In this document: piece by piece, positions 6,493 to 56,378 of the stretch | Layout of the letters: every line of letters begins with the position of its first letter | Position numbering within the stretch: the stretch's first letter is position 1 | Origin: Streptomyces qinzhouensis | Lineage (GTDB): Bacteria; Actinomycetota; Actinomycetes; Streptomycetales; Streptomycetaceae | Length of the DNA: 64,000 nucleotides | NCBI RefSeq assembly: GCF_007856155.1 | Contig: NZ_CP042266.1 | Location: 248,001-312,000 of the forward strand | Reading direction: 5' to 3' | Position numbers and translations under genes: made by a program | The notes under the pieces: model-generated | Databases searched by the model: none | What the model saw: the letters and a program-made list of their open reading frames with translations, nothing else | What the model was told of the DNA's origin: nothing

Positions 6493-7995
6493 TCAGACGA
6501 CCAGGGACCCGCCCCGCCCGGACGGACCGTGCGGCAGCACCCGTTCCAGCTCCTCCCTGAGTCCTCCGATCGTGCCGTGGCCGGCATAGCGGCCGGTCAG
6601 CCGGTACATCTCACGGAGCCGGTCCCAGGTCCGGTGCGACGAGGTCTCGCCCATCGACACCAGCGCCAGCCGGGCGTAGCGGTCCGCCTCCTCGGGGTCG
6701 TCGGCGATGAAACAGGCCGACGCCATCGAGATGTAGTCGAAGATCTTGGACCGCTGCCGGCCGCCTTCCCGCAGCTCCAGGGCCTTTCTGGCATGGCCCT
6801 GGGCGATCGTGGCCGCCGCCGGATCGTGCTCGGCGAAGGTACGGTACGCCAGCGCCTCCATCCCGTGCAGATCGGCCTCGTCGAACATCTGCATCCAGCT
6901 CGGGGGCGGCACATCGCTCCGGTCGGAGACGAACAGCTCCTCCGCCTCCCCCAGCTTCCGCCGCATCGCCTGCCCCTGGCCCAGGGACGCCTGGGCCCAG
7001 GCCTCGATGGTGCAGAGCATCGCCCGGGTCCTCGGCAGGGTCTCGTCCCCGGATCCGGACTGGGCCAGCTTCATCAGATCGAGGGCCTCGTCGGGGCGGC
7101 CCAGATGGACCATCTGACGGGCGGCACGGGACAGTGCCTCCCCGGCCCGGGGCCGGTCACCACCCTCGCGCGCCGCATGAGCGGCGATAACGAAGTACTT
7201 CTGGGCGGTGGGTTCCAGGCCGATATCGTGCGACATCCACCCGGCGAGTACGGCGAGATTGGCGGCCACACCCCACAACCGCCGCTGGAGATGGTCGGGG
7301 TGGCGGTAGGCGAGCATTCCGCCCACCTCGTTCAACTGGCCGACGACGGCCTTGCGCTGGAGTCCGCCGCCGCGGGAGGCGTCCCAGGCCCGGAAGACCT
7401 CGACGGAACGCTCCAGTGCCTCGATTTCCTGCGACCCGATGGGGGCGGCCTCGTAGCGGTCGTACCCGGTGGGTTCGTGGTGAGCGGCGGACGTGAGAGA
7501 GGTGGGGTCGGTCACGAGTGCGGGTTCGCTGTGCAGCCAGTCGTGCATGGCGCCGGTGAGGGCGGAGCCTGCGGCGAGCGCCGCGCCCGCGCCCACCAGC
7601 CCGCGTCGGTTGAGCATGAGGTCCATTCCCGTGAATTCAGTGAGGACCGACGCCGTCCGGTCGGGCGCCCAGGGAAGGCCTTCGGGGTTCGCCGCCTGTT
7701 CCGCGGCCCGTGCGCCCTTCCGTCTGCCCGCTCTCCCGCTCCGGACGAGGCCCAGGTCCTCGGTGGTCACGACACGGCCGAGCCGCTCGGTGAAGAGGGC
7801 GGCCAGCACCCGCGGAACGGGGTCGCGCGGGGTCTCCCCCATATCGATCCACCTCCGCACCCGCGAGGTGTCGGTCGCCAGCTGCGGATGGCCCAGGGCC
7901 GCCGCCTGCCGGTTCACGAGTCTCGCCAGTTCGCCCTTGGACCAGCCGGCCATGCCGAACAGGTCACTCAGGCGGGTATTGGGTCCTCCGGTCAC
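6493..7995 (-). CDS. NsdA/NsdB-type regulator: N-terminal DNA-binding-like region plus TPR-like helices
   Basis: 500 residues, GTG start. The N-terminus (residues 1-80) has the conserved block with WSKGELARLVNRQA, DTSRVRRWIDMGE and PRVLAALFTERLGR, an HTH-like region typical of the Streptomyces NsdA group. Residues 130-155 contain a hydrophobic GAGAALAAGSAL segment, probably not a true membrane helix. The remainder is helical TPR-like sequence. NsdA was described in S. coelicolor as a negative regulator of sporulation and antibiotic production; several paralogues exist in each genome, so I do not assign the symbol. It is convergent with the PP2C gene and divergent from the APH-like gene. Confidence 0.8.
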   Translation of the reverse strand: MTGGPNTRLSDLFGMAGWSKGELARLVNRQAAALGHPQLATDTSRVRRWIDMGETPRDPVPRVLAALFTERLGRVVTTEDLGLVRSGRAGRRKGARAAEQAANPEGLPWAPDRTASVLTEFTGMDLMLNRRGLVGAGAALAAGSALTGAMHDWLHSEPALVTDPTSLTSAAHHEPTGYDRYEAAPIGSQEIEALERSVEVFRAWDASRGGGLQRKAVVGQLNEVGGMLAYRHPDHLQRRLWGVAANLAVLAGWMSHDIGLEPTAQKYFVIAAHAAREGGDRPRAGEALSRAARQMVHLGRPDEALDLMKLAQSGSGDETLPRTRAMLCTIEAWAQASLGQGQAMRRKLGEAEELFVSDRSDVPPPSWMQMFDEADLHGMEALAYRTFAEHDPAAATIAQGHARKALELREGGRQRSKIFDYISMASACFIADDPEEADRYARLALVSMGETSSHRTWDRLREMYRLTGRYAGHGTIGGLREELERVLPHGPSGRGGSLVV

Positions 7996-8225: not shown

Positions 8226-9344
8226 ATGTACGCAGCATCGTCCTCCGTGTCCGCCCCGCTCCGGCCGCAGCGTCCAGCCGTGCCGGCCGGTTCCGGACCG
8301 TATCTCGAACCCAAACCCGCGAACCGGCTGCGCCGGCCGCCCGTACCGGTGGCGGGCCAGCAGCTCAGCGGCAGAATCGATCTCTCCGGGCCGCAGGGCG
8401 CCCAGTTGCGGATGGCGGTGGCATCGGTGCACCGGATCTGCCCGGAGTTCCATCCGGTGCAGGTGCTGCGCCGCAGCGGCCGCTCCGTACTGATCGTCGG
8501 CACCACCGGGCGGACCACGGCCGTGGCCAAGTGCCTGCTCGACCACTCCCCCGTCTGGAAGGAAAGGTTCCGCCACGAAATAGCGGTCTACCGCACCTTC
8601 GTCCGGCACCGTCCCCAGGACGTCCGGGTGCCGCGGCTGGTGGCCGCGGACCCGGAGAACTGCACCCTGGTGATCGAACGGATGCCGGGGAGGGCTGCGG
8701 CGCTGGCCCGGCACCCCGCGGAGGCCCCGCCGCGGGCGGATGTGCGGGCGGCGGTGGGCGCGGTGACCCGGCTCAACGACTGGCGGCCGCCCGCCGGGCT
8801 GTTCGACGCCCCGCTGGACTACTCGTCCCGGCTCTCCCGCTACCACGAGCTGGGCCTGTTCACCGATCGCGATCTGGGCGACCTCCGGCAGCTGTTGCGG
8901 GGCCCGGGGTCCGCGGGCGGGCGCGGCGCCGTCCGGGAGTTCTGCCACGGCGACGCACTGCTGTCGAACATGCTGCTGTCCCCGGCCGGGCCGGTACTGG
9001 TCGACTGGGAGCACGCGGGCTGGTACCTGCCGGGGTACGACCTGGCGACCCTCTGGGCGGTACTCGGGGACGCCCCCGCCGAGCGGCGGCGGATCAGTCA
9101 GCTCGCGACCCGGAAGGGACCCGCGGCCCGGGACGCGTTCCTGGTGAATCTGATGCTGGTGCTGACCCGGGAGATCCGTACCTATGAGACGGCCGTCCAG
9201 CGGACCATGCGGGAGGCGCCGTCGGTGAGCGGTGCGACCGGCGGGCCGTCCACCGGTGAGCAGCAGCGGCTGCTGCTGCGGCGGCTGCACGACGACTGCG
9301 CGATGGCGCGGCGGGCCGTCCGGGCCGCGGTGGGGACGCGCTGA
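8226..9344 (+). CDS. APH/choline-kinase-fold phosphotransferase
   Basis: 372 residues with an aminoglycoside-phosphotransferase/choline kinase fold: a nucleotide-binding N-lobe ([11 protein letters not shown] with the ATP lysine), the catalytic loop [12 protein letters not shown] near residue 240 and the metal-binding DWEHAGW near 260. A proline-rich segment of about 50 residues precedes the N-lobe. The natural substrate is not predictable from sequence; such genes near regulators in Streptomyces are often unrelated to resistance. It stands alone, bounded downstream by a strong terminator and upstream by a divergent NsdA-like gene. Confidence 0.82.
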
Positions 9345-9361
9345 GCCGAAGGAAGCCGCAG

Positions 9362-9403
9362 GCCGTGGTCCCGGTGCCGGAGCACCGGGACCACGGCGTT
9401 TTC
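9362..9403 (+). terminator. Strong intrinsic terminator after the APH-like gene
   Basis: A perfect 16-bp stem, GCCGTGGTCCCGGTGC (9362-9377) and its complement (9382-9397), closed by a 4-nt loop CGGA and followed by GTTTTCG. It isolates geoA from readthrough. Confidence 0.92.
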
Positions 9404-9499
9404 GCGCACGGCGACCGAGCATCGATTCGTACGGACAGGCGTTCGACTCTTCTACCCTGCGGGTGGCATTACCGTATGACTCATCGGATCGGAGCGTAG

Positions 9500-12388: not shown

Positions 12389-13564
12389 TCACCCGGCCGG
12401 GGGTTCGGCGCCGACGACCCACATCGCGAAGAACTGGGACCCTCCCCCGTAGGCGTGCCCCAGCGCCCGGCGGGCCCCGTCGATCTGGTGCTCCCCGGCC
12501 GCGCCCCGTACCTGCTGGGCCGCCTCGGCGAAGCGGATCATGCCGGAGGCGCCGATCGGATTGGTGGAAAGCACCCCGCCCGAGGGGTTCACCGGCAGAT
12601 CGCCGTCGAGTCCGGTGGCCCCGGACTCGGTCAGCTTCCAGCCCTCGCCCTCGGCGGCGAAGCCCAGGTTCTCCAGCCACATCGGCTCGTACCAGGAGAA
12701 GGGCACGTACAGCTCGGCCGTGTCGATCTCCCGGCGGGGGTCGGTGATCCCGGCCTGCCGGTAGACGTCGGCCGCGCAGTCCCGCCCGGCCCGGGGGGAG
12801 ACGAAGTCCTTGCCCGCGAAGAGCGTCGGCTCGCTGCGCATGGCGCCGCCGTGCAGCCAGGCCGGCGGCCGGGGGGCCCGGGCGGCGCCCGCCCGGCCGG
12901 TCAGCACCATCGCACAGGCGCCGTCGGACGAAGGGCAGGTCTCGGAGTAGCGGATCGGGTCCCAGAGCATGGGGGACGAGCGGACCTTCTCCAGGGTGAG
13001 GCCGTGTTCATGGAGATGGGCGTACGGGTTCTTCAGGGCGTTGCACCGGTCTTTGTGGGCGACGAGGGTCCCGGTGGTGTCGGGGGCGCCGCTGCGCCTG
13101 ATGTAGGCGCGGACATGGGGGGCGAAGAATCCGCCCGCCCCGGCGAGCAGCGGCTGCTGGAACGGCACGGGCAGGGACAGGCCCCACATGGCGTTGGACT
13201 CGGACTGTTTCTCGAAGGCGAGGGTCAGCACGGTCGGATGCACTCGGGCGGCCACGAGCTGGGCGGCGACCAGCGCCGTGGAGCCGCCGACGGAGCCCGC
13301 GGTGTGCACCCGCATCAGCGGTTTGCCGACCGCGCCGAGGGCGTCGGCGAGATACAGCTCCGGCATCATCACGCCCTCGAAGAAGTCGGGGGCCTTGCCG
13401 ATGACGACGGCGTCGATGTCCGCCCAGGTCAGTTCGGCGTCCGCGAGGGCGTTCAGGGCGGCCTCGCGGACCAGCCCGGCGATGGAGACATCGCGGCGGG
13501 CGGCGGTGTGCACGGTCTGGCCGACGCCGACGACGGCGACGGGTTCCTTCGACACCCGGGGCAT
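12389..13564 (-). CDS. Thiolase-fold protein, Ltp3-like (lipid-transfer/SCP-x thiolase family)
   Basis: 391 residues, last gene of a four-gene minus-strand operon. It has the thiolase layout (VVGVGQTVH at the N-terminus, NPSGGVLSTNPIGASG and LGHAYGGG near the C-terminus), but the nucleophilic cysteine position reads HTAGSVGGS, with no Cys. A classical thiolytic reaction is therefore unlikely. Mycobacterial Ltp proteins of this group pair with DUF35 partners and can work as retro-aldolases on steroid acyl-CoAs. Length and order match Mtb Rv3523 as I remember it. The start ATG overlaps the previous stop by one base (TGATG). Confidence 0.85.
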   Translation of the reverse strand: MPRVSKEPVAVVGVGQTVHTAARRDVSIAGLVREAALNALADAELTWADIDAVVIGKAPDFFEGVMMPELYLADALGAVGKPLMRVHTAGSVGGSTALVAAQLVAARVHPTVLTLAFEKQSESNAMWGLSLPVPFQQPLLAGAGGFFAPHVRAYIRRSGAPDTTGTLVAHKDRCNALKNPYAHLHEHGLTLEKVRSSPMLWDPIRYSETCPSSDGACAMVLTGRAGAARAPRPPAWLHGGAMRSEPTLFAGKDFVSPRAGRDCAADVYRQAGITDPRREIDTAELYVPFSWYEPMWLENLGFAAEGEGWKLTESGATGLDGDLPVNPSGGVLSTNPIGASGMIRFAEAAQQVRGAAGEHQIDGARRALGHAYGGGSQFFAMWVVGAEPPAG

Positions 13565-14625
13565 CAGGTTTCCCCTTCCAGGACGGTGACCAGGTTCTGC
13601 TGGAGGCAGGGGCCGGAGGTGGCGTGGGCCAGCGCGCGGCCGGCCTCGCCGCGGTGGATCGCGGCGGCGGCTTCGCCGATCCGGACGAGTCCGGCGGCCA
13701 TCACGGGGTTGGCGGCGAGGGCTCCGCCGGACGGATTGACCCTGACCCTCGTGTCGAGGTCGAGGGCGCGCCTGAGCACCACTTCCTGGGAGGTGAAGGG
13801 GGCGTGCAGTTCGGCCAGGTCGAGGGGGCGTTCGAAGACTCCGGCGCGTTCGGCGGCGAGCCGGGTGGAAGGCGAATCGGTGAGATCGCGGACACCGAGG
13901 GCATGGGCTTCGGTGCGGTGGTCGGCGCCGGTGATCCACGCGGGGCGGGCGCACAGTTCGCGGGCCCGGTCCCCGGCGGCGAGGATCAGGGCGGCGGCCC
14001 CGTCGCCGACGGGCGGGCAGTCCCCGGTGTGCAGCGGGTGGACGACCGGATCGCCGTGGGCGACGGCACCGCGCAGTTGTGCGTACGGGTTGGCGGCGGC
14101 GTCGGCGCGGCTGCGGGCGGCGATCGCGGCGAGGGCGGGTCCTGTGGTGTGCCCGGCGTCGATCAGGGCCCGGGCCTGGAGTGCGGCCAGGGCGACGGAG
14201 TCGGGCCAGAGGGGGGCGGTGTAGTAGGGGTCGAGCTGGCGGCTGAGGACATCCCTGAGTTCACCGGCGGAGGAGGTGCCGTACGCGTACACCAGGGCGG
14301 TGTCGGTCTCGCCGGTGAGGAGTTTCACCCAGGCCTCGTAGAAGGCCCAGGCGCCGTCGGTCTCCACATGGGACTCGGAGATCGGGGGCCAGGCGCCGAC
14401 GCCGTCGAGGGCGAGGGTGAAGGAGAAGGCCCGGCCTGCGAGGTAGTCGGAGGAGCCCGAGCAGGTGAAGCCGATGTCACCGGTGCGCAGTCCGGTGGCG
14501 GCCAGCACCTCGTGGAGGACGGGCATCAGCATCTCGGCCTCGGACAGTTCGTCGGTGCGCCGCCGGTGGACGGTCTGGGCGAAGGCCACGACCGCGACGG
14601 GGACGGTGCCGGCGGGCGGTGTCAC
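13564..14625 (-). CDS. Thiolase-fold protein, Ltp4-like
   Basis: 353 residues. Thiolase-like N-terminus (VVAFAQTVHRR) and the C-terminal block RVNPSGGALAANPVMAAG. The usual cysteine region reads SHVETDGAWAFYEAW, again without the nucleophile. GTG start overlaps the DUF35 stop (GTGA), so translation is coupled. Size and position directly after a DUF35 gene and before a second thiolase-fold gene match the Mtb Rv3521-Rv3522-Rv3523 order. Possible role: aldol cleavage or CoA-ester binding in side-chain degradation of a sterol-like or branched substrate (inference). Confidence 0.83.
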   Translation of the reverse strand: MTPPAGTVPVAVVAFAQTVHRRRTDELSEAEMLMPVLHEVLAATGLRTGDIGFTCSGSSDYLAGRAFSFTLALDGVGAWPPISESHVETDGAWAFYEAWVKLLTGETDTALVYAYGTSSAGELRDVLSRQLDPYYTAPLWPDSVALAALQARALIDAGHTTGPALAAIAARSRADAAANPYAQLRGAVAHGDPVVHPLHTGDCPPVGDGAAALILAAGDRARELCARPAWITGADHRTEAHALGVRDLTDSPSTRLAAERAGVFERPLDLAELHAPFTSQEVVLRRALDLDTRVRVNPSGGALAANPVMAAGLVRIGEAAAAIHRGEAGRALAHATSGPCLQQNLVTVLEGET

Positions 14626-46363: not shown

Positions 46364-46393
46364 CGGGCCCGGGGTGGTGCGGCCCCGGGCCCG
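46364..46393 (-). terminator. Terminator hairpin after the secreted B12-regulated gene
   Basis: Perfect 11-bp stem CGGGCCCGGGG (46364-46374) with CCCCGGGCCCG (46383-46393) and an 8-nt loop, 10 bp past the stop codon at 46403 in the minus direction. It separates this gene from the kinase. Confidence 0.8.
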
Positions 46394-46402
46394 GGCGGGA
46401 TG

Positions 46403-47839
46403 TCAGGAGCCGTAGCGCAGGGCGATGGTGTCGCCGACGCCGATCACCCGGGCGCGGCCCGCGGTGGTGAAGGCGGAGCCGTCGACGCTCGCCCGCCAGG
46501 TGGCGGTGCCGCTGTTGGCGGTGCCGTTGACCGCGGTGATGGTCCCGGTGCCGGCGGCCGGGGTCACGGAGGTGACGCAGCCCGCCGGGGTCGCGGCCGT
46601 GGCCGCCGCGTCCAGTACGGCGCCGAGGGTCGTCGTGCCGGCGGTGGGCGTGAAGGCGACCGAGCAGACCTTGAGGGCACCCGTACCGTCGTCGACGGTG
46701 AGGGCGAGTTCGGTGGCGGTGCCGGGGGTGAACGCGCTCTGGGCGACCCAGCGCGGGGCACCGGCGGAGGGCAGGGGCGGTGCGGCGGTGAAGCCGCCGC
46801 CCGCGACGGCGCGCAGGGCGTCGGTGGAGGAGTAGGCGGACGGAGCGTTGTCGCCGGGCTGGTAGCGGAAGCCGCCGCCGGGGTTGAACTGCTGGGCGAT
46901 GAGGAAGTCGACCGGGGTCTTCCCGGCGGGGGTGAGGAAGTCGCCGGTCTGGGGGTTGATGCCGCAGGCGTTGAGGCCGGAGACGGCCCAGCCGTTGGAG
47001 CTGGAGTTGATGCCGTACATGGCGTCGAAGGCACCGGAGTTGTTGACCAGCTTGCCCTTGAGGAAGGTGCGGGCCTGCACGATGTCGGGGTCGGTGGCGG
47101 GGACTCCGGCGGCGCAGAGCGCGGCCATGGACGCACCGGTCATGTCGACGTCGCCGGGGGCGGCCAGCCGGACCGGGTCGCCCTCGGCCTTCTGGTAGTC
47201 CCAGCCGCCGTCGTTGTGCTGGTTGGCCCGGATGCGGGTGGTGATCCGGTCGAGGAGGGCCTGCGGGACGCGCTGTGCGCCGGCCTGGGTTCTGGCTCCG
47301 GCGAGCGCGAGGCCCGCGAAGACGGTGCCGTTGTAGTTGGCGGAGCTGCCGAAGTAGCCGGCCTCCGCGGTCTGCCAGTAGCTGTAGATGTCGCCGATGA
47401 GGTTGCGGGAGGCGGAGACCCGGGCCGGGTCGATGCCGGCGGCGTAGGCGTTGAGGGTGGCGCGCTCGTAGTCGGTGACGACCGGGGTGGCGGACGGCCA
47501 GGCGGCGGTGGCGAGGAGGTTGCGGTAGACGGTCCGGGCGTTCTTGGTGGTGTCGCCGCCCGGGGCGACGTCCACGGCGGCCGTTCCGGCGGCGGCGAAG
47601 GCGCTGAACGCCCACTCGTTGGAGAGCCCGGAGCCCGCGTAGGAGCCGTCGGGGGCCTGGAGGGTCCTCAGATAGGCCGCGCCGTTGGTCTTGGAGGTCG
47701 CTATCTGGGCCGGGGTCGAGGTCGCGGACGCGGGCAGGGCGCCCGCGGCGAGCGCCGCGGCCGCGGCGGTGACGACGAGCGCGCGCAGCCGGGTGCGGGA
47801 CGCCGGGGCGGCGGTCCGGGTGTGGGGAGTACGGGACAT
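46403..47839 (-). CDS. Secreted transcobalamin-like protein: alpha/alpha repeats plus DUF4430-like beta domain
   Basis: 478 residues. Sec signal peptide at 1-40 with an ASA/TS cleavage site. Residues about 45-360 show prenyltransferase/squalene-oxidase-type alpha/alpha repeats with NDGGWDY, GGGFRYQ and regularly placed helices. Residues about 370-478 look like DUF4430: TTLGAVLDAA, then W-R-A-S-V-D-G, then GDTIALRYG at the very end. This is the domain order of intrinsic factor and transcobalamin, where cobalamin is held between barrel and beta domain. A cobalamin riboswitch controls it. No anchor is present, so it should diffuse. AGGAG precedes the ATG. B12 binding is inferred, not shown. Confidence 0.82.
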   Translation of the reverse strand: MSRTPHTRTAAPASRTRLRALVVTAAAAALAAGALPASATSTPAQIATSKTNGAAYLRTLQAPDGSYAGSGLSNEWAFSAFAAAGTAAVDVAPGGDTTKNARTVYRNLLATAAWPSATPVVTDYERATLNAYAAGIDPARVSASRNLIGDIYSYWQTAEAGYFGSSANYNGTVFAGLALAGARTQAGAQRVPQALLDRITTRIRANQHNDGGWDYQKAEGDPVRLAAPGDVDMTGASMAALCAAGVPATDPDIVQARTFLKGKLVNNSGAFDAMYGINSSSNGWAVSGLNACGINPQTGDFLTPAGKTPVDFLIAQQFNPGGGFRYQPGDNAPSAYSSTDALRAVAGGGFTAAPPLPSAGAPRWVAQSAFTPGTATELALTVDDGTGALKVCSVAFTPTAGTTTLGAVLDAAATAATPAGCVTSVTPAAGTGTITAVNGTANSGTATWRASVDGSAFTTAGRARVIGVGDTIALRYGS

Positions 47840-47964
47840 ATGGCCTGCTCCTGGGATGAGGGACGCCGGCCGGGCGCGGTCACCGACCCGGACGAGCCCG
47901 GGCCGTGAGGCGCTGGCCGCCGTCCGAACGCGAGGTAACGGCTTCCTGGGTGGTGCTCGCCGCA

Positions 47965-48066
47965 CGGGCATTCGGACTCGGTCCGGCCCCGGGCCGTGTC
48001 CGGCCCCGCCGTCCCTCACCGCTGCGCGTCAGTTCCGGATTCTCACCGGATTCCCCCATGTGACAG
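47965..48066 (-). promoter_or_regulatory. Cobalamin riboswitch (minus strand)
   Basis: On the minus strand the leader reads GGGGAATCCGGTGAGAATCC, then GGAACTGACGCGCAGCGGTGA, and ends CGAGTCCGAATGCCC, all conserved parts of the adenosylcobalamin riboswitch (B12 box, junction and the AG-CCGAA-ACC distal arm). About 125 nt separate it from the ATG at 47839. It should reduce expression of the secreted protein when B12 is plentiful. Confidence 0.93.
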
Positions 48067-48189
48067 CCCTGGACGGTACCCGAGGAGCAACTTCCGCGCC
48101 ACTGCCCGCCGTTCACGGTCCGCCGTTGACGGGCCGGTGGCGCCCGGGGCCGTCTTGACGGCCACTTCGGTCATATGTTCCAATCCGCC

Positions 48190-48310
48190 TGTTACATGCT
48201 CATGTCCAGGGGAAGCCGGTGGGAATCCGGCGCTGACCCGCAACCGTGAGTCCGCCGCGCGGCGGACGAGTCGGACCGCCTGGAGTGGGTGCTCGATCAG
48301 CGAGAAGCGC
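48190..48310 (+). promoter_or_regulatory. Cobalamin riboswitch (plus strand)
   Basis: Canonical B12 riboswitch core: GGGGAAGCCGGTGGGAATCC, GCTGACCCGCAACCGTGAG, a GC-rich variable hairpin (CCGCCGCGCGGCGG) and GAGTCGGACCGCCTGG. It precedes the LAATG protein and the ECF transporter operon. The aptamer is back to back with the minus-strand one, with about 120 bp in between for two divergent promoters. Confidence 0.96.
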
Positions 48311-48416
48311 CGTCGCGGACTACGGCGTGGTCGACCGGCCTCCGGTGGGGTGTATCCCGCCGTGCGGGGCCGCCCCGCCACGTGCCGTGCCCGCGCGGAC
48401 GACACGAGGGGCCGTG

Positions 48417-51209
48417 GTGGGGACGATCCGACGGACAGACCGGCGTGGCGGCGGACGGTGGAGCCCGGGCTCCCCGGCGGCCGTACTGACGGCACTGCTG
48501 ACGCTGTTGATGCTCGGTACGGGCGGGCTGTCCGCCACCGCGGCACCGGCCACCGCCGGCTCGGCGGCCGATACGCCGGCCGCGGCCGACGCGCCCGAGA
48601 AGTGCACCGCGGCCAAGGGCGCGATCGTGGCGGTCGACTTCGGTGCCTTCGACGGACCGGTCGTACGGGGCTGCGATACGACCCCGACGACCGGGTACGA
48701 GCTGCTGCGGACGGGCGGTTTCGGCACCGCCGGGACCCAGCACGACGGTCCGGCGTTCATCTGCCGGATCGGTCATCCCTCGGCGCCCGGCGGCAAGCAG
48801 TATCCGACGCCCGACAAGGAACAGTGCAAGAACACCCCGTCCGCCGGTGCCTACTGGTCGTACTGGGTGGCGGCGAAGGGCGCCAAGGACTGGCGGTACA
48901 GCAGCTTCGGGGCGATGTCCCGGACTCTGCGGCCGGGCGATGCGGATGCCTGGGTGTTCGGCGCCACGGAGATCGGGGGCGCGGGCGGGAAGCCGTCGTT
49001 CACCCCGGACCAGGTGCGGGCCGGGGCCGGCCTCGACGAGATCCGTACCAGGGCCGTGGGGAGTTGGGCGCAGCAGCGGCTGACCGGCGGCGAGCGGGTG
49101 GAGACCGCACCGGGCGAGCCCAGTGATCTGCTCACCGTGAAGGCCGCGTACGCCCTGGCCGCGACCGTGGGCAAGGGTGCCGCCCTGGACCGGGTGACGG
49201 CCTATCTCCGTTCCCGTACCACCGCATACGCCTATCCGCGGGGCGCTGACCAGGCGCCGGATCCCACGGCCGCCGCACAGCTCGCGCTGCTGGCGGAGAT
49301 CACCGAGAAGGATCCGCGGGATTTCGGCGGCCATGATCTGGCGGGCGATCTGCTGAAGACCGTATGCCCCGAGCCGACGCCCGAGGCGCCCGAGCCCGGC
49401 TGCTCGGCCGCGGGTGACTTCCGGGGCGCGGGCACCACCGAGGCACAGGCGCAGTCCGTGCTCGCGCTGGTCCGCGCCGGTCTGACGGTCCCGGAGGCGG
49501 CCGTCGCCCGGCTGACCCGGCTGGACTGCCCCGGCGGCGGCCACGGCGGAATGCTGAACCCGCCCGGACAGCGCTGCGACGGCGAACCGGGCGCCACGGC
49601 GTGGATCGCGCTCGCCCTGCACGCGGCCGGAGGATACGAGGGGGCGCTGGCCGAGACCGTCGCGGAGCTGAAGGAGCAGCAGCGGACGGACGGCTCGTTC
49701 CCCGTCTATACCGGGAGCACCGGGTACGCCGATGTCGGGACGACCGCCCTGGCCGCCCAGGTACTAAGGGCGCTGGGTGACCGGGACCGGGCGGACCGGG
49801 CCGTCGCCTGGCTGGCCCGTCAGCAGTTCCCGCTCGGTGGTTTCAGCTCGGACGAACTGGCGCTCGAACCGCATCTGTATCCGACGGAGGCCGCCGCGCT
49901 CGCCGGGGCCGACGCCGATCTGCTGACGCTGGTCGCGAAGGTGATCCCGCCGGAGCCCGCCAATCCGAGTGAGCCAGGGCCCGGCGATCCGGGCGGTCCG
50001 GGTGAGCCGGGCGAGGGCCGGGGGCCCGATCTGAAGAAGGGCGTGGCCTATCTCACCGGCGCCGGACGGCTGCTGCGCGGCCGTTACTACGCCGACGCGC
50101 CGGGTTCGCCGCGCGCCGATTTCGGGCTGACCGTCGACGGCGCCTTCGCGCTCGCCGCCACCGGGCACAACAACGCCAAGCTCCGCGGCATGGTGGACTT
50201 CCTCGACCAGGGGGGCGAGGACGGCGCGGGCCGCGCCCTGCACGACTGGACCAAGGCGGGCACGGAGTATGTCGTGGGCGGGGCGGTCGGCAAGGCGGCG
50301 GTGCTCGCCCATTCGGTCGGCCGCGATCCGCGGAACTTCGGCGGGCGCGATCTGATCGCCGTGCTGGAGAAGGAGACCTGCACGGGCCCGGGCGAGGGGT
50401 GCGACGCCAAGGGCAACTACCGGAACGCGACCTCCGTGTTCGGCCAGTCGCTGGGCATCATCGCGCAGCTGCGGGCCGGTGAGCGGGCGGCGGCGGCCGA
50501 GCCGGTGGCGTATCTCCTCTCCCTCCAGAAGGAATCCGGCGCCTTTCCGAGCGTGATCCCGGCGAAGGACCCGCTGGACCAGGAGGTGGACTCCACGGCG
50601 ATGGCCGCGATGGCCATCGCCCTGGCCGGCGGGGAGAAGGCGGACGCGGCCGTGGCGCGGGCCCTGGAGTGGATCGCGGAACGGCAGCTCGCCGACGGTG
50701 GTTTCCCGGGCGCGTCGGGGAATTCGGTCAACTCGGCGGCGCTGGCGGTCCAGGGGCTGTCGCTGGACGCGCCGGAGTACCGTGACCGGATCGCGAGGGC
50801 CCGGCTGTTCCTCGCCGGGCAGCAGAACGCCGACGGCGGCTTCAATGTCGCGAAGGACGAGCAGCCGGGTTCGGACGTCCGGGCCTCCGCGCAGGCGGTC
50901 GGCGGTGCCAACGGTATCTCGTTCGCGGTGCTGGAGCGGAGCCTCGCGGGGACATCCCCGCAGCCGGACCCCGGACCGGATCCGTCGGGGCCGCCGCCGC
51001 GGATCGTCACCCCCGGTGACCCGGGCGGGGCCGCGGGCTCCGGCGGCGCGGCGGGATCGGCCGGCTCCGGCGGGGGCGGGCTGGCCGCCACCGGCACCGA
51101 TGTGCTCGGCCTCGCCGGAACCGCCGCCGCCCTGCTGGCGGCCGGCGCGGCCGCGGTCGCCGTGGTGGCCGTGGCCCGCCGCCGTACGTCCGCGGGGAGG
51201 CAGGGGTGA
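48417..51209 (+). CDS. Cell-wall-sorted B12-regulated protein: beta domain, two alpha/alpha-repeat regions, LAATG signal
   Basis: 930 residues from GTG 48417 (GAGGGG five nt upstream); the longer frame starts inside the riboswitch. Signal peptide about 1-45. Residues about 55-190 form a DUF4430-like beta domain (GAIVAVDF, GYELLRTGG, GPAFICRIG, AYWSYWVA, W-RYSSFGA). Two alpha/alpha-repeat regions follow, about 210-500 and 535-850, with QQRTDGSFP, QQFPLGGF, RQLADGGFP and QQNADGGF. The end is a Gly/Pro linker, sortase motif L889-A-A-T-G893, a membrane helix and an RRR tail, typical of class E sortase substrates. Operon head before the ECF transporter, so a wall receptor for cobalamin is the likely role. 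Confidence 0.82.
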   Translation: MGTIRRTDRRGGGRWSPGSPAAVLTALLTLLMLGTGGLSATAAPATAGSAADTPAAADAPEKCTAAKGAIVAVDFGAFDGPVVRGCDTTPTTGYELLRTGGFGTAGTQHDGPAFICRIGHPSAPGGKQYPTPDKEQCKNTPSAGAYWSYWVAAKGAKDWRYSSFGAMSRTLRPGDADAWVFGATEIGGAGGKPSFTPDQVRAGAGLDEIRTRAVGSWAQQRLTGGERVETAPGEPSDLLTVKAAYALAATVGKGAALDRVTAYLRSRTTAYAYPRGADQAPDPTAAAQLALLAEITEKDPRDFGGHDLAGDLLKTVCPEPTPEAPEPGCSAAGDFRGAGTTEAQAQSVLALVRAGLTVPEAAVARLTRLDCPGGGHGGMLNPPGQRCDGEPGATAWIALALHAAGGYEGALAETVAELKEQQRTDGSFPVYTGSTGYADVGTTALAAQVLRALGDRDRADRAVAWLARQQFPLGGFSSDELALEPHLYPTEAAALAGADADLLTLVAKVIPPEPANPSEPGPGDPGGPGEPGEGRGPDLKKGVAYLTGAGRLLRGRYYADAPGSPRADFGLTVDGAFALAATGHNNAKLRGMVDFLDQGGEDGAGRALHDWTKAGTEYVVGGAVGKAAVLAHSVGRDPRNFGGRDLIAVLEKETCTGPGEGCDAKGNYRNATSVFGQSLGIIAQLRAGERAAAAEPVAYLLSLQKESGAFPSVIPAKDPLDQEVDSTAMAAMAIALAGGEKADAAVARALEWIAERQLADGGFPGASGNSVNSAALAVQGLSLDAPEYRDRIARARLFLAGQQNADGGFNVAKDEQPGSDVRASAQAVGGANGISFAVLERSLAGTSPQPDPGPDPSGPPPRIVTPGDPGGAAGSGGAAGSAGSGGGGLAATGTDVLGLAGTAAALLAAGAAAVAVVAVARRRTSAGRQG

Positions 51210-52132
51210 CGAGGGGCAGGCTCGCCCGTGCGGCCGCCGCGCTCGGCCTGACGGCCGCCGGGCTGGGGGCGGCGGTATCGCCCGCCGCCGCGGATCCCCA
51301 GCCGATGGGGCGGTGCACCACCTCGTCCGGTGCGGTGCTCGCGGTCGACTTCAGCTCGTGGGGCGGGCCGGTCTACCGCTCCTGCGGTACGACCCCGACC
51401 ACCGGCTACGAACTGCTGAACCAGGGCGGCTGGCGGACCGCGGGCACCGGGCACGACGGTCCGGCGTTCATCTGCCGCATCGGCTACAGCGGGCACCGGG
51501 GCGGGAAACTGTTCCCGCCGCCGGACCAGGAGGACTGCGTCCTCACTCCCCCGGCCTCCGCCTACTGGTCGTACTGGCACGCGGATCCGGGCGAGAACAC
51601 CTGGGAGTACAGCACGCTCGGCGCCATGCTCTACAAGCCGAAGCCCGGCAGCGTCGACCTGTGGATCTTCGGCGGGACGAACATCGGCGGGACGAAGGGG
51701 CGGCCGAAGGTGACCCCCGACCAAGTGCGGGCGCACAACGCCCGGCCGGTGGGCGGCGCACCGTCGCCGGCCGGGAAGGCGCCGGTGGTCCCGCCGGGTA
51801 CGGACACCGGCCCGGCGCCGGTCCGTTCCACCGCTCCCACCCGGCCCCCGAAGCCTGCGCCCGGGCCTTCGGTGACGCCGTCCCCCGCGGCACCGGTGAG
51901 TGCCGCACCGTCCCCGTCCCCTTCCGCCGCAGCGCCGTCGGTCTCCGCGTCCGCACCGGGCGCGGTGGCCGCGGCGAGCGGCGCGCCGAAGGTCGTGGAC
52001 GCGGCCCCGGCCGCCGACGCGGCCCGGGACCCGGGTTCGGCGGTGCCGGTGCTGGCGACGGTGGGACTGGTCGTGGTGCTCGGCGGGGCGGCCGTGGTCA
52101 CGGTCCGGCGCCGCCGACGCCGTACGGATTAG
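51206..52132 (+). CDS. Membrane-tethered protein with a lone DUF4430-like beta domain
   Basis: 308 residues, GTG overlapping the preceding stop (GTGA). Signal peptide 1-29 (ends SPAAADP). Residues about 33-170 repeat the beta domain of the upstream protein: GAVLAVDFSSW, GYELLNQGGW, GPAFICRIGY, AYWSYWHADPG, W-EYSTLGA, GSVDLWIFGG. A Pro/Ala/Ser-rich stalk of about 100 residues follows, then a single membrane helix and RRRRRR at the C-terminus. There is no alpha/alpha barrel and only a degenerate sorting motif (LATVG), so it is probably held in the membrane. It could pass ligand from wall receptor to ECF transporter (inference). Confidence 0.8.
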   Translation: MTRGRLARAAAALGLTAAGLGAAVSPAAADPQPMGRCTTSSGAVLAVDFSSWGGPVYRSCGTTPTTGYELLNQGGWRTAGTGHDGPAFICRIGYSGHRGGKLFPPPDQEDCVLTPPASAYWSYWHADPGENTWEYSTLGAMLYKPKPGSVDLWIFGGTNIGGTKGRPKVTPDQVRAHNARPVGGAPSPAGKAPVVPPGTDTGPAPVRSTAPTRPPKPAPGPSVTPSPAAPVSAAPSPSPSAAAPSVSASAPGAVAAASGAPKVVDAAPAADAARDPGSAVPVLATVGLVVVLGGAAVVTVRRRRRRTD

Positions 52133-52146
52133 CCGGAGCCGCCCCC

Positions 52147-53337
52147 ATGTCGCGTACCGTTTCCGGACCCGCGCCGGACCCGGGCGGCCGGAGGCTGCCC
52201 CGGACCCTGCATCCCGTCGCCTGGTGGATCTGGGCGCTGGCGCTGGCCACCGCGGTCAGCCGGACGAACAATCCACTGCTGCTCCTCCTGGTTCTGGCGG
52301 TCCTCGGCTATGTCGTCACCGTGCGCCGTACCGAGGCGCCGTGGGCCCGGGGCTTCCACTACTACCTCGGTCTGGCCCTGGTCGTGATCGCGATCAGGGT
52401 GGTGTTCCGGGCCGTGTTCGGGACCGGCATCACCCCCGACGACCATTTCCTGTTCTCGCTGCCCACGATCCCGACGCCCGACTGGTACGCGGGCATCCGG
52501 ATCGGCGGTCCGGTATCGCTGGAGGCGCTGCTGTCGGCGGCGACCGAGGGGCTGCGCCTCGCCTGCATGCTGTGCTGCATCGGGGCGGCGAACACGCTGG
52601 CCAATCCGAAGCGGGCGCTGCGGGTGCTGCCGGGTGCGCTGTACGAGCTGGGGGTCGCCGTCACGGTGTCCATCAGCGTCGCGCCCCAGTTGGTGCAGAG
52701 CGTCCGGCGGGTGCACCGGGCCCGCAGGCTGCGGGCGGGGCGGACGAAGGGACTCCGGGCGCTGCGCGGGATCGTGGTGCCGGTGCTGGAGGACGCCCTG
52801 GAGCGGTCGCTGAGGCTGGCCGCCGCGATGGACTCGCGCGGCTACGGCCGGGCCGGGTCGGCGACGCGCCGTTCGCGGCGGCTGACGGGGGCGCTGATGC
52901 TGCTGGGCATGTGCGGTCTCTGTGCGGGGGCGTACGGGCTCCTCGACGCGACGGCCCCGAAGCCGCTGGGGCTGCCCGCGCTGGCCGTCGGCGCACTCCT
53001 CTGCCTGGGGGGACTGCGGCTGGGCGGCCGCCGGGTGACGCGTACGGTCTACCGGCCCGATCCCTGGCGGCTGCCGGAGTGGGCGGTCGCCGGATGCGGG
53101 GTGCTCTCGGCGGTCCTGCTGTTCAGCGGGGCCGGCTTCGACGCGGCGGAGCTGAACGCGTCGCTGTATCCGCTGGGCTGGCCCGCGCTGCCACCGGTCC
53201 CGGCCGCGGCGATCCTGCTGGCCGGGGCCGCCGGATTCCTTTCCCCGCCGCCCTCCGCCGTACCCGTTCGCGGCGTACCGGCTGCCGAATCCGCTTCGCG
53301 CGCCGCCGCGCGCCGCACCGAGGACTCCGCCCTGTGA
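52147..53337 (+). CDS. ECF transporter T component (EcfT/CbiQ family)
   Basis: 396 residues, multi-helix membrane protein. Two coupling-helix type motifs are seen: ARRLRAGRTKG and, further on, AMDSRGYGRAG, which match the conserved Ala-Arg-Gly signatures that contact the ATPases. Helices near 25-75, 105-135, 165-190 and four more in the C-terminal half. The C-terminal part is longer than in a minimal CbiQ. It would transmit ATP hydrolysis to the substrate-binding S component. The stop overlaps the ATPase start. Confidence 0.9.
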   Translation: MSRTVSGPAPDPGGRRLPRTLHPVAWWIWALALATAVSRTNNPLLLLLVLAVLGYVVTVRRTEAPWARGFHYYLGLALVVIAIRVVFRAVFGTGITPDDHFLFSLPTIPTPDWYAGIRIGGPVSLEALLSAATEGLRLACMLCCIGAANTLANPKRALRVLPGALYELGVAVTVSISVAPQLVQSVRRVHRARRLRAGRTKGLRALRGIVVPVLEDALERSLRLAAAMDSRGYGRAGSATRRSRRLTGALMLLGMCGLCAGAYGLLDATAPKPLGLPALAVGALLCLGGLRLGGRRVTRTVYRPDPWRLPEWAVAGCGVLSAVLLFSGAGFDAAELNASLYPLGWPALPPVPAAAILLAGAAGFLSPPPSAVPVRGVPAAESASRAAARRTEDSAL

Positions 53338-54986
53338 TCACCTTCGACGAGGTCTCCGTCGTCTACGACGACCGGTCCGAACCCGTACTGCGCGATGTGG
53401 ATGTGACGGTGGAGGAGGGCGAGCTGTGCCTGGTCACCGGGCTCACGGGGGTCGGGAAGTCGACTCTGCTGGGGGCCGTGAACGGGCTGGTGCCGCATTT
53501 CACCGGCGGCACACTGCACGGCCGGGTGGTCGTCGACGGCCGGGACACCGCGCACCATCCGCCGCGGGAGCTGGCCGATGTGGTGGGGGTGGTGGGCCAG
53601 GATCCCCTGGACGGTTTCGTCACCGACACGGTGGAGGAGGAGCTGGCGTACGCCATGGAGCAGTTGGCGGTGCCGCCCGCGGTCATGCGCAAGCGGGTGG
53701 AGGAGACCCTCGATCTGCTGGGCCTGGCGGATCTGCGCCACCGGCCGCTGTACCAGCTGTCCGGCGGGCAGCAGCAGCGGGTCGCGATCGGTTCGGTGCT
53801 GACGGCCCATCCGCGGGTGCTCGTCCTCGACGAGCCGACGTCGGCGCTGGACCCGACGGCGGCCGAGGAGGTGCTGGCGGCCGTCACCCGACTCGTACAC
53901 GATCTGGGTGTGACGGTGCTGGTCGCGGAGCACCGGCTGGAGCGGGTGGTGCAGTACGCGGACCGGGTGCTGCATCTGCCGGGTGACGGACGGGTGGTGT
54001 CGGGGCCGCCCGCCGAGGTGTTCCGGGACTCCGGTGTGGCGCCGCCGGTGGTGGATCTGGGCCGGGTGGCGGGCTGGTCGCCGCTGCCGCTGTCGATCCG
54101 TGACGCGCGCCGGGCGGCGGCCCCGCTGCGGGCCGGGCTCGCGGACGTGGTGCCGCCGCCGGCCAGGCCCGTTACCCCGGCGCACGGCCCCACGGTACTG
54201 ACGGCGCGCGGTGTGACGGTGAAGCACCGGGGGGTGCCCGCCGTGCGAGAGGTCGGTCTGGAGCTGCGGGCGGGTGAGGTGACGGCGCTGATGGGCCGCA
54301 ACGGCTCGGGAAAGTCGTCGCTGCTGTGGGCGCTCCAGGGGTCGGGGCCGCGGCAGAACGGGACCGTGCACGTCGCATCGGACGGCGCGGTCGGGGCCGA
54401 TCCGAAGGGACTCCCGGCGGCGCTGGCACGGCGGCTGGTGGGGCTGGTGCCGCAGACGGCGACGGACCTGCTCTATCTGGAGAGCGTGGCACAGGAGCTG
54501 GCGCAGGCGGACCGCGAGTCGGCGCCGGAGGCGGCGGGTGCGACCGTGCCCGCGCGGGAGATCCTCGACCGGCTGGTGCCGGGCGTGGTGGGGAGTGTGC
54601 ACCCCCGGGATCTGTCCGAGGGTCAGAAGCTCGCCCTGGTACTGGCGATCCAGCTCGCCGCGGCGCCGCCGGTGGTGCTGCTGGACGAGCCGACGCGGGG
54701 GCTGGACTACCGGGCGAAGGAGCAGTTGACCGGGATCGTGGACGGGCTGGCGCGGGAGGGCCGTGCGGTGGTGGTCGCCACGCACGACGTCGAGTTCGTG
54801 GCCCGGGCGGCGGACCGGGTGGTGGTGATGGCGGAGGGGGACATCGTCGCGGACGGGCCGACGCCGGAGGTGATCACGGCGTCTCCGGTGTTCGCCCCGC
54901 AGGTCGCGAAGGTGGTGGCGCCACTGCCGTATCTGACGGTGGCACAGGTGGCGGCGGTGCTGGCGGGTCCGGGGAGGAAGGCGTGA
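53334..54986 (+). CDS. ECF transporter ATPase, A and A' domains fused
   Basis: 550 residues, GTG overlapping the T-component stop (GTGA). First ATPase: Walker A TGLTGVGKSTLL (K42), Q-loop VGQDP, signature LSGGQQQRVAIG, Walker B VLVLDEPTSALD, switch His in VAEHRLE. Second: Walker A GRNGSGKSSLL (K327), signature LSEGQKLALVLA, Walker B VVLLDEPTRGLD, His in ATHDVEF. The fusion guarantees an A-A' heterodimer. It powers the ECF complex at the inner face of the membrane. Confidence 0.94.
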   Translation: MITFDEVSVVYDDRSEPVLRDVDVTVEEGELCLVTGLTGVGKSTLLGAVNGLVPHFTGGTLHGRVVVDGRDTAHHPPRELADVVGVVGQDPLDGFVTDTVEEELAYAMEQLAVPPAVMRKRVEETLDLLGLADLRHRPLYQLSGGQQQRVAIGSVLTAHPRVLVLDEPTSALDPTAAEEVLAAVTRLVHDLGVTVLVAEHRLERVVQYADRVLHLPGDGRVVSGPPAEVFRDSGVAPPVVDLGRVAGWSPLPLSIRDARRAAAPLRAGLADVVPPPARPVTPAHGPTVLTARGVTVKHRGVPAVREVGLELRAGEVTALMGRNGSGKSSLLWALQGSGPRQNGTVHVASDGAVGADPKGLPAALARRLVGLVPQTATDLLYLESVAQELAQADRESAPEAAGATVPAREILDRLVPGVVGSVHPRDLSEGQKLALVLAIQLAAAPPVVLLDEPTRGLDYRAKEQLTGIVDGLAREGRAVVVATHDVEFVARAADRVVVMAEGDIVADGPTPEVITASPVFAPQVAKVVAPLPYLTVAQVAAVLAGPGRKA

Positions 54987-55816
54987 CCGGCGGGGATCGC
55001 GAGGGCGGCGGGCCGGTGGCGATCAGGATCGGTCCGCGGGCCGGGGTCGTCATCGTCCTGGCGGCGGCGCTCGGCCTCGTCGCCTTCTTCTGGCCGTTCG
55101 TCGTCGCCCCGGGCACCTTCGCCTCGCACTACGCTCCCCCGCTGATCTTCGGGGTGCTGCTGGTCCTGGTGCTGTGTGTGGTGATCTCCGAGATCGCCGA
55201 GGGCGGGATCGACTCCAAGGCGCTGGCGATGCTCGGTGTCCTGTCGGCCGTGAACGCGGCGCTGCGCCCGTTGGGTGCGGGCACGGCGGGGGTGGAGACG
55301 GTGTTCTTCGTCCTGGTCCTGGCGGGCCGGGTGTACGGGCCGGGCTTCGGCTTCACCCTGGGCTGTACGTCGCTGTTCGCGTCGGCGCTGATCACGGGCG
55401 GGGTCGGCCCGTGGATGCCGTACCAGATGTTCGGCTGTGCCTTCGTCGGCATGCTGGCCGGGTTTCTGCCGAGGGCCTCGGGCCGCCGGGAGGTGCTGAT
55501 GCTCGCCGTCTACGGCTCGTTCTCCGGTTATCTCTTCGGCTTTCTGCTCAATCTGTCCTTCTGGCCGTTCTCCGTCGACCCGGGCAGTTCGATCGCCTAT
55601 CTGCCGGGGCTGCCGTTCACCGAGCAGTGGCAGCGCTATCTCGCGTTCGACGTGGCGACATCGCTGGGCTGGGACACCGGCCGGGCGGTCACCAACTTCG
55701 TCTGCATCCTGCTGGCGGGCCCGGCGGTCCTGACGGTCTTCCGCCGTGCGGCCCGGCGGGCCCGTTTCCGGGCACCGATACGGTTCGCACCGCCGCGGGG
55801 GCGCGGCCCGGGGTAA
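54983..55816 (+). CDS. ECF transporter S component, probable cobalamin binder (CbrT-like role)
   Basis: 277 residues, GTG overlapping the ATPase stop (GTGA). Six or seven helices; the internal block GRVYGPGFGFTLGCTSLFASALITGGVGPWMPYQMFG (seen as GRVYGPGFGF and GVGPWMPYQM) is the typical S-component loop before helix 4. Substrate specificity is taken from the cobalamin riboswitch at the head of the operon, not from sequence. Last gene of the plus-strand B12 operon. The C-terminus is basic and probably cytosolic. Confidence 0.85.
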   Translation: MTGGDREGGGPVAIRIGPRAGVVIVLAAALGLVAFFWPFVVAPGTFASHYAPPLIFGVLLVLVLCVVISEIAEGGIDSKALAMLGVLSAVNAALRPLGAGTAGVETVFFVLVLAGRVYGPGFGFTLGCTSLFASALITGGVGPWMPYQMFGCAFVGMLAGFLPRASGRREVLMLAVYGSFSGYLFGFLLNLSFWPFSVDPGSSIAYLPGLPFTEQWQRYLAFDVATSLGWDTGRAVTNFVCILLAGPAVLTVFRRAARRARFRAPIRFAPPRGRGPG

Positions 55817-55970
55817 GCGGACACGGGTGCCGCCTGCTCATCGCCCGCGCTCGCCCGCACTCGCCCACGCGAACCAAAAAGCCGCACGGAGACGCCGAGA
55901 AGCCGCGTCCTGCGCCGTCCCGGGGGTGAACGCGGCCACAATGGCCGCCCCGGCATCGAGGAGAACCATC

Positions 55971-56378
55971 ATGGCGAAGTATCTGCTGATCAAGCACTAC
56001 CGCGGCGCTCCGGCAGCGGTGAACGACGTGCCCATGGAGCAGTGGACCCCGGCGGAGATCACCGCGCATGTGCAGTACATGAACGACTTCGCGGCGCGGC
56101 TGACGGGGACCGGCGAGTTCGTCGACGGTCAGGCGCTCGCCCCGGAAGGGATGTGGGTCCGGTACGACGGGGAGGGGCGGCCGCCGGTCACCGACGGGCC
56201 GTTCGCGGAGTCGAAGGATCTGATCGCCGGCTGGATGGTGATCGACGTCGACGGTGACGAACGCGCCGTCGAGCTGGCCGGGGAGCTGTCGGCCGCTCCC
56301 GGGGCGGGCGGGAGGCCGATCCACGAGTGGCTGGAGGTCCGTCCCTTCCTGACCACGCCGCCCACCGGCACCGAGTGA
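55971..56378 (+). CDS. YCII-related (DGPF) domain protein
   Basis: 135 residues starting MAKYLLIKHYRG with GAGGAGA before the ATG. The YCII/PhnB-like fold is marked by the VTDGPFAESKDLIAGWMVIDV segment (DGPF). In actinobacteria such proteins are often near ECF sigma factors of the SigJ/ECF41 type, but none is adjacent here. Function unknown; soluble, monocistronic. Confidence 0.85.
   Translation: MAKYLLIKHYRGAPAAVNDVPMEQWTPAEITAHVQYMNDFAARLTGTGEFVDGQALAPEGMWVRYDGEGRPPVTDGPFAESKDLIAGWMVIDVDGDERAVELAGELSAAPGAGGRPIHEWLEVRPFLTTPPTGTE

Follow-up and report, generated by a model that had tools for sequence, protein, structure and literature searches.

Bacterial counterparts of the animal cobalamin carriers were foreseen by Burroughs et al. 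(2007), who defined a transcobalamin-like SLBB clade (PMC1796856). As described in the accessible part of that article, its members show fusions to toroids in either order, a fusion to a beta-propeller, Gram-positive anchors and paralogous pairs. The corresponding genes stand in operons with CbiO/CbiQ genes, and scavenging of B12 or of its precursors was proposed. The hosts named for the clade are low-GC Gram-positives, planctomycetes and euryarchaea, usually devoid of B12 synthesis; two actinobacteria are also listed in the alignment. It was further proposed that animals gained their toroid-plus-SLBB protein from bacteria (PMC1796856). Here, we consider a gene set of Streptomyces qinzhouensis (contig NZ_CP042266.1) located in a window of 64,000 bases, corresponding to bases 248001-312000 of the 8.15 Mb single-contig genome; coordinates below are window positions. 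Region 46403-55816 contains gene A on the minus strand, two divergent cobalamin riboswitches and then, on the plus strand, genes B, C, EcfT (T), a fused EcfA-EcfA' ATPase (AA) and EcfS (S), the last three encoding an energy-coupling factor (ECF) transporter. We give a probability of about three in four to the view that this set serves the uptake of cobalamin or of a close corrinoid, with A, B and C capturing the ligand and feeding a CbrT-type ECF importer.

As judged from the accessible part of PMC1796856, the window system is a variant of the kind predicted by Burroughs et al. The likeness lies in a secreted or anchored beta-grasp domain fused or paired with a toroid, in the presence of a second paralogue and in an operon of the CbiO/CbiQ type. 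A DUF4430-type beta domain and a toroid are indeed found together in such an operon, in the case of B and C through a widened profile only (see below). The sequence-only reading of this DNA had stated that no pathway of this design was known from a Gram-positive cell envelope; that statement has to be withdrawn in view of the 2007 prediction, made mainly for low-GC Gram-positives. Unlike the hosts of the SLBB clade, the present genome has CobN, CobD and CobQ. A riboswitch, a CbrT S component and a double-toroid protein with an LAxTG motif, all present in the window set, were not encountered in the accessible text. Compared with it, the new elements are the actinobacterial branch, the control of both strands by riboswitches, the CbrT-type S component, the double-toroid LAxTG protein, the set of predicted secreted, wall and membrane proteins and the presence of B12 synthesis genes in the host. 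The literature searched, mostly outside subscription papers, yielded no experiment on these proteins, and the design is described there in PMC1796856 only.

Animal transcobalamin, intrinsic factor and haptocorrin (2BB5, 2PMV, 4KKI) show the same toroid-then-DUF4430 order as protein A. Unlike the animal carriers, A has no PF01122 match, and the window genes adjoin an importer and riboswitches. Judged strictly by PF01122, the system stands outside the animal cobalamin-binding family, yet it likely works in a similar way. Bacteroides BtuG-type lipoproteins likewise capture B12 at the cell surface before a transporter takes it over, though in a different, outer-membrane setting. The BtuG fold is a beta-propeller. 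No propeller gene belongs to the window operon, unlike in BtuG-type systems, and two distant operons discussed below open with a PQQ-type propeller. A last comparison is with the housekeeping locus of streptomycetes known from the NCBIfam names SCO2321 and SCO2322. It contains, as in the window, a toroid membrane protein, a beta protein, T, AA and S; unlike in the window, the toroid is single and A is absent. Against the NCBIfam cut-offs, window B scores 112.7 bits for 300 required, and C scores 22.3 bits for the 85 required by SCO2322_fam.

The ECF importer

Among the links of the gene set to its ligand, the S component is the strongest, followed by the riboswitches and then by the fold of A. 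A profile was built from seven S components, namely the window copy, the housekeeping copy and five others. When it was compared with the PDB at E-values up to 10, the sole match was 6fnp_A (E 4.9e-12, residues 9-179 of 182). This chain is named only 'Membrane protein' and was taken as CbrT because it has 182 residues. 6FNP is the structure of ECF-CbrT from Lactobacillus, whose transport of both cobalamin and cobinamide has been demonstrated (PMC5997447, accessible part). The profile match thus supports the assignment of the window S component as a probable relative of CbrT.

The CbrT-homologous S component, EcfT and two ATPase domains are all present in the operon. The complete ECF transporter recognized at first sight was recovered by family profiles, with matches to PF02361 for EcfT, to PF00005 for the two-domain ATPase and to PF12822 for EcfS. 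As in ECF-CbrT of Lactobacillus delbrueckii (6FNP), the S component is thus accompanied by EcfT and two ATPase domains. Unlike that system, the window genes form a dedicated module in one operon, with fused ATPases and three extracellular proteins. According to the part of PMC5997447 consulted, Lactobacillus CbrT shares its ECF module with other S components and works without extracellular proteins. Cobalt uptake was also considered and rejected: EcfT is CbiQ-like, but EcfS is CbrT-like, and Pfam names neither CbiM nor CbiN among the six proteins.

Cobalamin riboswitches

The two cobalamin riboswitches seen initially in the sequence both exceed the gathering score of Rfam RF00174, and their conserved core is present in the alignment (scores in Table 1). 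They stand 107 bases ahead of the start codon of A and 119 bases ahead of that of B. Their minimum-energy folds are not better than those of shuffled sequences. Support for the elements comes, therefore, from the covariance model and from recurrence. Chance occurrence was rejected because both are above threshold and recur at other loci. A regular expression written for the riboswitch core was abandoned as a search method, since it failed to find most of the known elements. Cobalamin riboswitches of this type have been described as off-switches (PMC11477304, accessible part). By analogy, we infer that both window riboswitches would bind cobalamin and act as off-switches.

Protein A

Protein A begins with a hydrophobic N-terminus (residues about 1-40) and has no membrane tail according to hydropathy; signal peptides were judged by eye and hydropathy. 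An alpha/alpha toroid spans residues about 43-348 (bases 47713-46796). It is followed by a C-terminal DUF4430-type beta domain at residues about 360-478 (bases 46762-46406). The predicted structure reaches a mean predicted local distance difference test (pLDDT) of 92.0 and a predicted template modelling score (pTM) of 0.89. When this model was compared with 350,542 PDB chains using Foldseek, the top 14 matches were all transcobalamin, intrinsic factor or haptocorrin, with 11-15% identity in the structural matches. In addition, the DUF4430 profile matches the beta domain of A with a score equalled by 0/150 shuffles. These results bear out the earlier description of A as alpha/alpha repeats ending in a DUF4430-like domain. 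The model supports the view that A would be a toroid plus DUF4430-type protein whose nearest full-length structural neighbours are the animal B12 carriers.

Family searches give a more distant picture. A Pfam scan at E-values up to 10 yielded no PF14478 or PF01122 match for window A, B or C, so that the term 'DUF4430-like' is based on comparisons of folds and of profiles. No protein of the whole S. qinzhouensis genome matches PF14478 above the 23.8-bit cut-off, and 22/74 rows of the A family match it at E up to 1. When the A and B profiles were run against PDB sequences, they returned cyclases, prenyltransferases and complement toroids, and no B12 carrier. The nearest database relatives of A are from Streptomyces, with 87 and 92% identity. 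For counts of tails and motifs, the best 120 of 659 relatives of A and the best 120 of 341 relatives of B were used. A membrane tail occurs in 0/120 of these A relatives, and A itself is predicted to be secreted.

Proteins B and C

Protein B contains an N-terminal beta domain, two toroids, an LAATG motif, a membrane helix and a basic tail. It was modelled over residues 58-868 from an alignment of 52 sequences (mean pLDDT 81.7, pTM 0.49), and the model shows two good toroids. Sortase substrates of the LAxTG type are recognized by this motif, a following membrane helix and a basic tail. These elements are found together in B alone, in a genome that has nine sortase matches (PF04203); by eye, no LAxTG motif was seen in A or C. 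LAxTG occurs in 115/120 and a membrane tail in 119/120 of the B relatives. Thus, B is predicted to be sorted to the wall. Protein C comprises an N-terminal signal-like stretch, a beta domain at about 51272-51745, a linker rich in proline and alanine, a membrane helix and six arginines. It is predicted to be tethered at the membrane. Both proteins had been outlined in this way from the sequence. For B, the modelled toroids, LAATG and tail agree with the wall-sorted protein with a beta domain and two alpha/alpha regions, the beta model being of low confidence. For C, the beta domain common with B and the membrane tail seen by hydropathy agree with a membrane-tethered beta-domain protein.

The beta domains of B and C are 58% identical. 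In a first comparison of their profile with DUF4430, 14/150 shuffles were as good, which is not significant. The profile was then widened with 11 divergent relatives found elsewhere in the class. The widened profile matches DUF4430 with a score of 30.4 over 77 columns (probability 53%, E 1.3e-4); none of 200 shuffles reaches this score, the best being at 17.8. A Pfam scan of ten of the divergent beta proteins gave no DUF4430 match. Compared directly with the B/C domain, the beta domain of A was equalled by 49/150 shuffles, and by 1/200 after widening of the profile. The B/C beta domain would therefore be of the DUF4430 type, as judged by the widened profile only.

Two observations weigh against a strict likeness to transcobalamin. 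Superposition of full-length A, a ligand-free model, gives root-mean-square deviations of 19.2-20.3 Å, so that its toroid and beta domain would be packed otherwise than in transcobalamin, where B12 lies between the two. The beta domain of B is modelled poorly, with pLDDT mostly 37-76. The domain order in B differs from the toroid-then-beta order of the animal carriers. The Foldseek list for B is headed by terpene cyclases, transcobalamin appearing from rank 28 (E 1.5e-5). The expected match between A and transcobalamin, suggested as a check at the outset, is thus only partly obtained: the 14 best structural matches are B12 carriers, but PF01122 and PF14478 are not matched and the two domains do not superpose as one body.

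The toroids also raise the question of enzymatic activity. The toroid proteins could be extracellular enzymes, either terpene cyclases or glycan-acting alpha/alpha toroids, with an incidental control by B12. Pfam indeed calls B a squalene-hopene cyclase (35.8 bits for a cut-off of 26.2), and cyclases, GH76 mannanases and epimerases top the VIA lists. DxDD is the acid motif of class II terpene cyclases. It occurs in 11/120 B relatives and in 12/51 Patulibacter-type A relatives, but is absent from window A, from window B and from all 120 A orthologues, and the longer DxDDT is found in just 1/120 B relatives. The toroids are fused to or paired with DUF4430-type domains and associated with CbrT-type ECF genes, which fits a carrier, and we give this enzymatic explanation very little credit.

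Recurrence in Streptomyces and related genera

Among 61 genomes of the genus, including that of S. qinzhouensis, A is present in 6; B gives matches of any length in 18 and long ones in 6. One of the six genomes (G012) has the system in three distant chromosomal places. The pieces (L071, L072 and L027) carry A with a B-type beta domain, toroids with C, and T-AA-S. A relative of EcfS is found in 57/61 genomes, mostly in a housekeeping locus. When eight housekeeping loci (L069, L073-L079) were scanned with Rfam, a cobalamin riboswitch at gathering score was found in three (L069, L078, L079). The copy of S. qinzhouensis itself (L069, 3128-9149) is at 2.03 Mb behind a B12 riboswitch of 38.2 bits and consists of a single-toroid membrane protein, an SCO2322-like beta protein, T, AA and S. 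Among the first eight relatives scanned, a riboswitch precedes A or the operon in four (L022, L024, L026, L028) and lies only elsewhere in L021; L023, L025 and L027 gave none. Small open reading frames past EcfS have weak DUF4430-profile scores (E 0.001-0.02) at L021 (4966-5687), L023 (3906-4850) and L024 (4556-5077), and the L021 riboswitch (5615-5687) is directly ahead of one of them.

A contig scan with the beta domain gave 310 relatives, from which 76 loci were kept, 62 of them with full flanks. They come from Streptomyces, Kitasatospora, Actinacidiphila, Dactylosporangium, Catellatospora, Micromonospora, Hamadaea and metagenome bins. The order C-T-AA-S is found at 61 of the 62 complete named loci. 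A toroid gene is upstream in 58 of those 61, with a divergent A as well in 53. In Rfam scans of the first eight named loci, the A/B gap contained a cobalamin riboswitch in seven cases (not L138), on both strands in four. At the second eight, a riboswitch is upstream of the toroid or C genes in 8/8, at varying distance.

This distribution bears on another possible role of A, which could be released to sequester B12 and starve competitors, as a haptocorrin would, the importer then being made of B, C and the ECF proteins. Such a role would agree with the unanchored state of A, with the riboswitch of its own and with the five of the 58 complete toroid and ECF loci where no A is found within the fetched flank. 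On the other hand, A is divergent to the importer at 53 of the 62 complete named loci, and a cell short of B12, the state in which the riboswitch opens, would pay a high price for losing the vitamin bound to A. We consider sequestration highly improbable.

At the level of the class, the beta domain is found in 128/296 genomes and 55/105 genera. Of the divergent beta-domain loci scanned, 3/8 have a B12 riboswitch. One of the side cases is a lone beta-domain protein of 175 residues behind an adenosylcobalamin riboswitch (59.7 bits; L202, 7980-8706) in a 1.2 Mb genome; no ECF gene was found in the 17.5 kb stretch. In another (L205), beta-domain proteins flank T-AA-S on either side (8664-9497 before and 13165-13884 after).

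Distant Actinomycetota operons

In the phylum, A has matches in 17/346 genomes, that of S. qinzhouensis included, and long flanks were examined for 15 of the 16 others. An ECF ATPase gene adjoins the toroid gene in 15/15, and EcfS was found by BLAST in 12/15. A DUF4430 protein is present in 13/15, three of these being seeds of the profile; at the remaining two, the contigs start just ahead of the ATPase gene. Rfam detected a cobalamin riboswitch in 7 of the 10 loci scanned, at 64-116 bits. Among the three others, the upstream region is missing from L105 and L112, and no riboswitch lies within the stretch of L107. Genes for toroid, beta-domain and ECF proteins thus recur together with the riboswitch.

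Two A proteins filed under Patulibacter (L101, L102) come from loci that repeat the plan of the window. Two divergent riboswitches accompany a toroid-plus-beta protein on one strand and, on the other, beta, toroid and DUF4430 proteins together with the ATPase. The DUF4430 protein of L101 exceeds the PF14478 cut-off with 51.6 bits. These B12 riboswitches lie at 7311-7806, and in L102 they overlap on opposite strands. Two further loci, L103 and L108, have the order riboswitch, PQQ-type beta-propeller, DUF4430 protein (PF14478, 62.7 and 66.1 bits), T, AA, S and toroid membrane protein. The propeller genes (948-3494 in L103 and 13300-15921 in L108; PF13360, 75.8 and 81.5 bits) are the first behind a B12 riboswitch of more than 100 bits. 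Perhaps the propeller protein is another surface B12 binder.

Corrinoid metabolism of the host and nature of the cargo

The S. qinzhouensis genome has eight cobalamin riboswitches. Some are ahead of CobN (L083), of CobD/CobQ (L081) and of a Peripla_BP_2/FecCD pair of the BtuF/BtuC type (L082). From these positions, it is likely that the cell both makes and imports corrinoids. As judged by eye only, another cobalamin riboswitch is ahead of a MetE-like gene (L080), and a further one is held by L084.

The same machinery might then serve a different cargo, that is, an incomplete or non-cobalamin corrinoid such as cobinamide or the cobamides of neighbours. Cobalamin would only be the signal, and the system would ensure salvage in a B12-making cell. 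The presence of CobN, CobD and CobQ, each behind a cobalamin riboswitch, is in favor of such a role. Moreover, Lactobacillus CbrT binds and carries cobinamide besides cobalamin (PMC5997447), and Burroughs et al. allowed for B12 or its precursors (PMC1796856), as read in the accessible parts of both articles. The fold of A argues in the opposite direction, for it resembles carriers of whole cobalamin. On balance, a cargo of this kind seems rather unlikely.

A possible relay from medium to cytoplasm

Capture of cobalamin or a close corrinoid by A, B and C ahead of the ECF importer would proceed as follows. At low internal cobalamin, both riboswitches would open and all six genes would be made. 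Since it has no anchor, A would leave the cell; as predicted from its fold, it would bind cobalamin through its toroid and beta domain. B would be fixed in the wall through its sortase signal, with C remaining membrane-bound close to the importer. The vitamin would then pass to EcfS, import being powered by EcfT and EcfA/A', by analogy with Lactobacillus ECF-CbrT (PMC5997447, accessible part). The order A, B, C, EcfS of this relay is suggested by anchoring alone.

It is tempting to go further and to imagine A as a soluble transcobalamin-like 'corrinophore' of streptomycetes that returns soil B12 to the dedicated CbrT-type ECF importer. The passage through the Gram-positive envelope would lead via B, a double-toroid receptor fixed in the wall, and via the beta domain of C at the membrane, in parallel to the chain formed by haptocorrin, intrinsic factor and transcobalamin. 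Such a device would have been kept despite the B12 synthesis genes, and it would belong to the bacterial stock ancestral to the animal carriers. We hold this extended view to be possible but doubtful.

If the uptake system is real, the transcobalamin architecture, its regulation and its importer would be placed in an easily grown and engineerable genus, and the 2007 prediction of bacterial B12 carriers would become directly testable. Many proteins that at present bear the names 'prenyltransferase/squalene oxidase repeat' or 'SCO2321/SCO2322 family' would acquire a function. In addition, an ECF importer could have extracellular feeders, and Actinomycetota would join the bacteria to be considered as possible origin of the animal B12 carriers.

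Organization of the locus

The coordinates of the features are given in Table 1. GTGA overlaps are observed at the B/C, T/ATPase and ATPase/S junctions, in agreement with the initial view of genes linked by overlapping codons. The C/T junction does not conform to it: codon 52129 is TTA, and the first T start, ATG 52147, is 14 bases past the C stop. An artefact of reading frames was rejected, the same frames being found again in other genomes.

Table 1. Features of the candidate corrinoid uptake locus (window positions).
Feature	Position	Strand	Evidence
Protein A, 478 residues	46403..47839	-	Open reading frame list, predicted structure, Foldseek, profile comparison, hydropathy
Cobalamin riboswitch, A side	47946..48098	-	RF00174, 35.1 bits, gathering 31.5
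Cobalamin riboswitch, operon side	48151..48298	+	RF00174, 34.7 bits
Protein B, 930 residues	48417..51209	+	Open reading frame list, model, toroid matches, LAATG
B beta domain (low-confidence model)	48588..49031	+	58% identity to C beta domain; widened profile vs DUF4430
B toroid 1	49032..49934	+	Model residues about 146-449
B toroid 2	50001..50918	+	Model residues 472-777
B LAATG sorting motif (predicted)	51081..51095	+	Motif search
Protein C, 308 residues	51206..52132	+	Open reading frame list, NCBIfam scan, beta-domain comparison, hydropathy
EcfT, probable start ATG 52147	52147..53337	+	PF02361, 45 bits
Fused EcfA-EcfA' ATPase	53334..54986	+	Two PF00005 stretches; GTG start overlaps EcfT stop
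EcfS, probable CbrT relative	54983..55816	+	PF12822, 33.5 bits; PDB profile match

Downstream of the operon, a YCII-family protein (PF03795, 31.1 bits) is encoded at 55953-56378 on the plus strand and looks unrelated.

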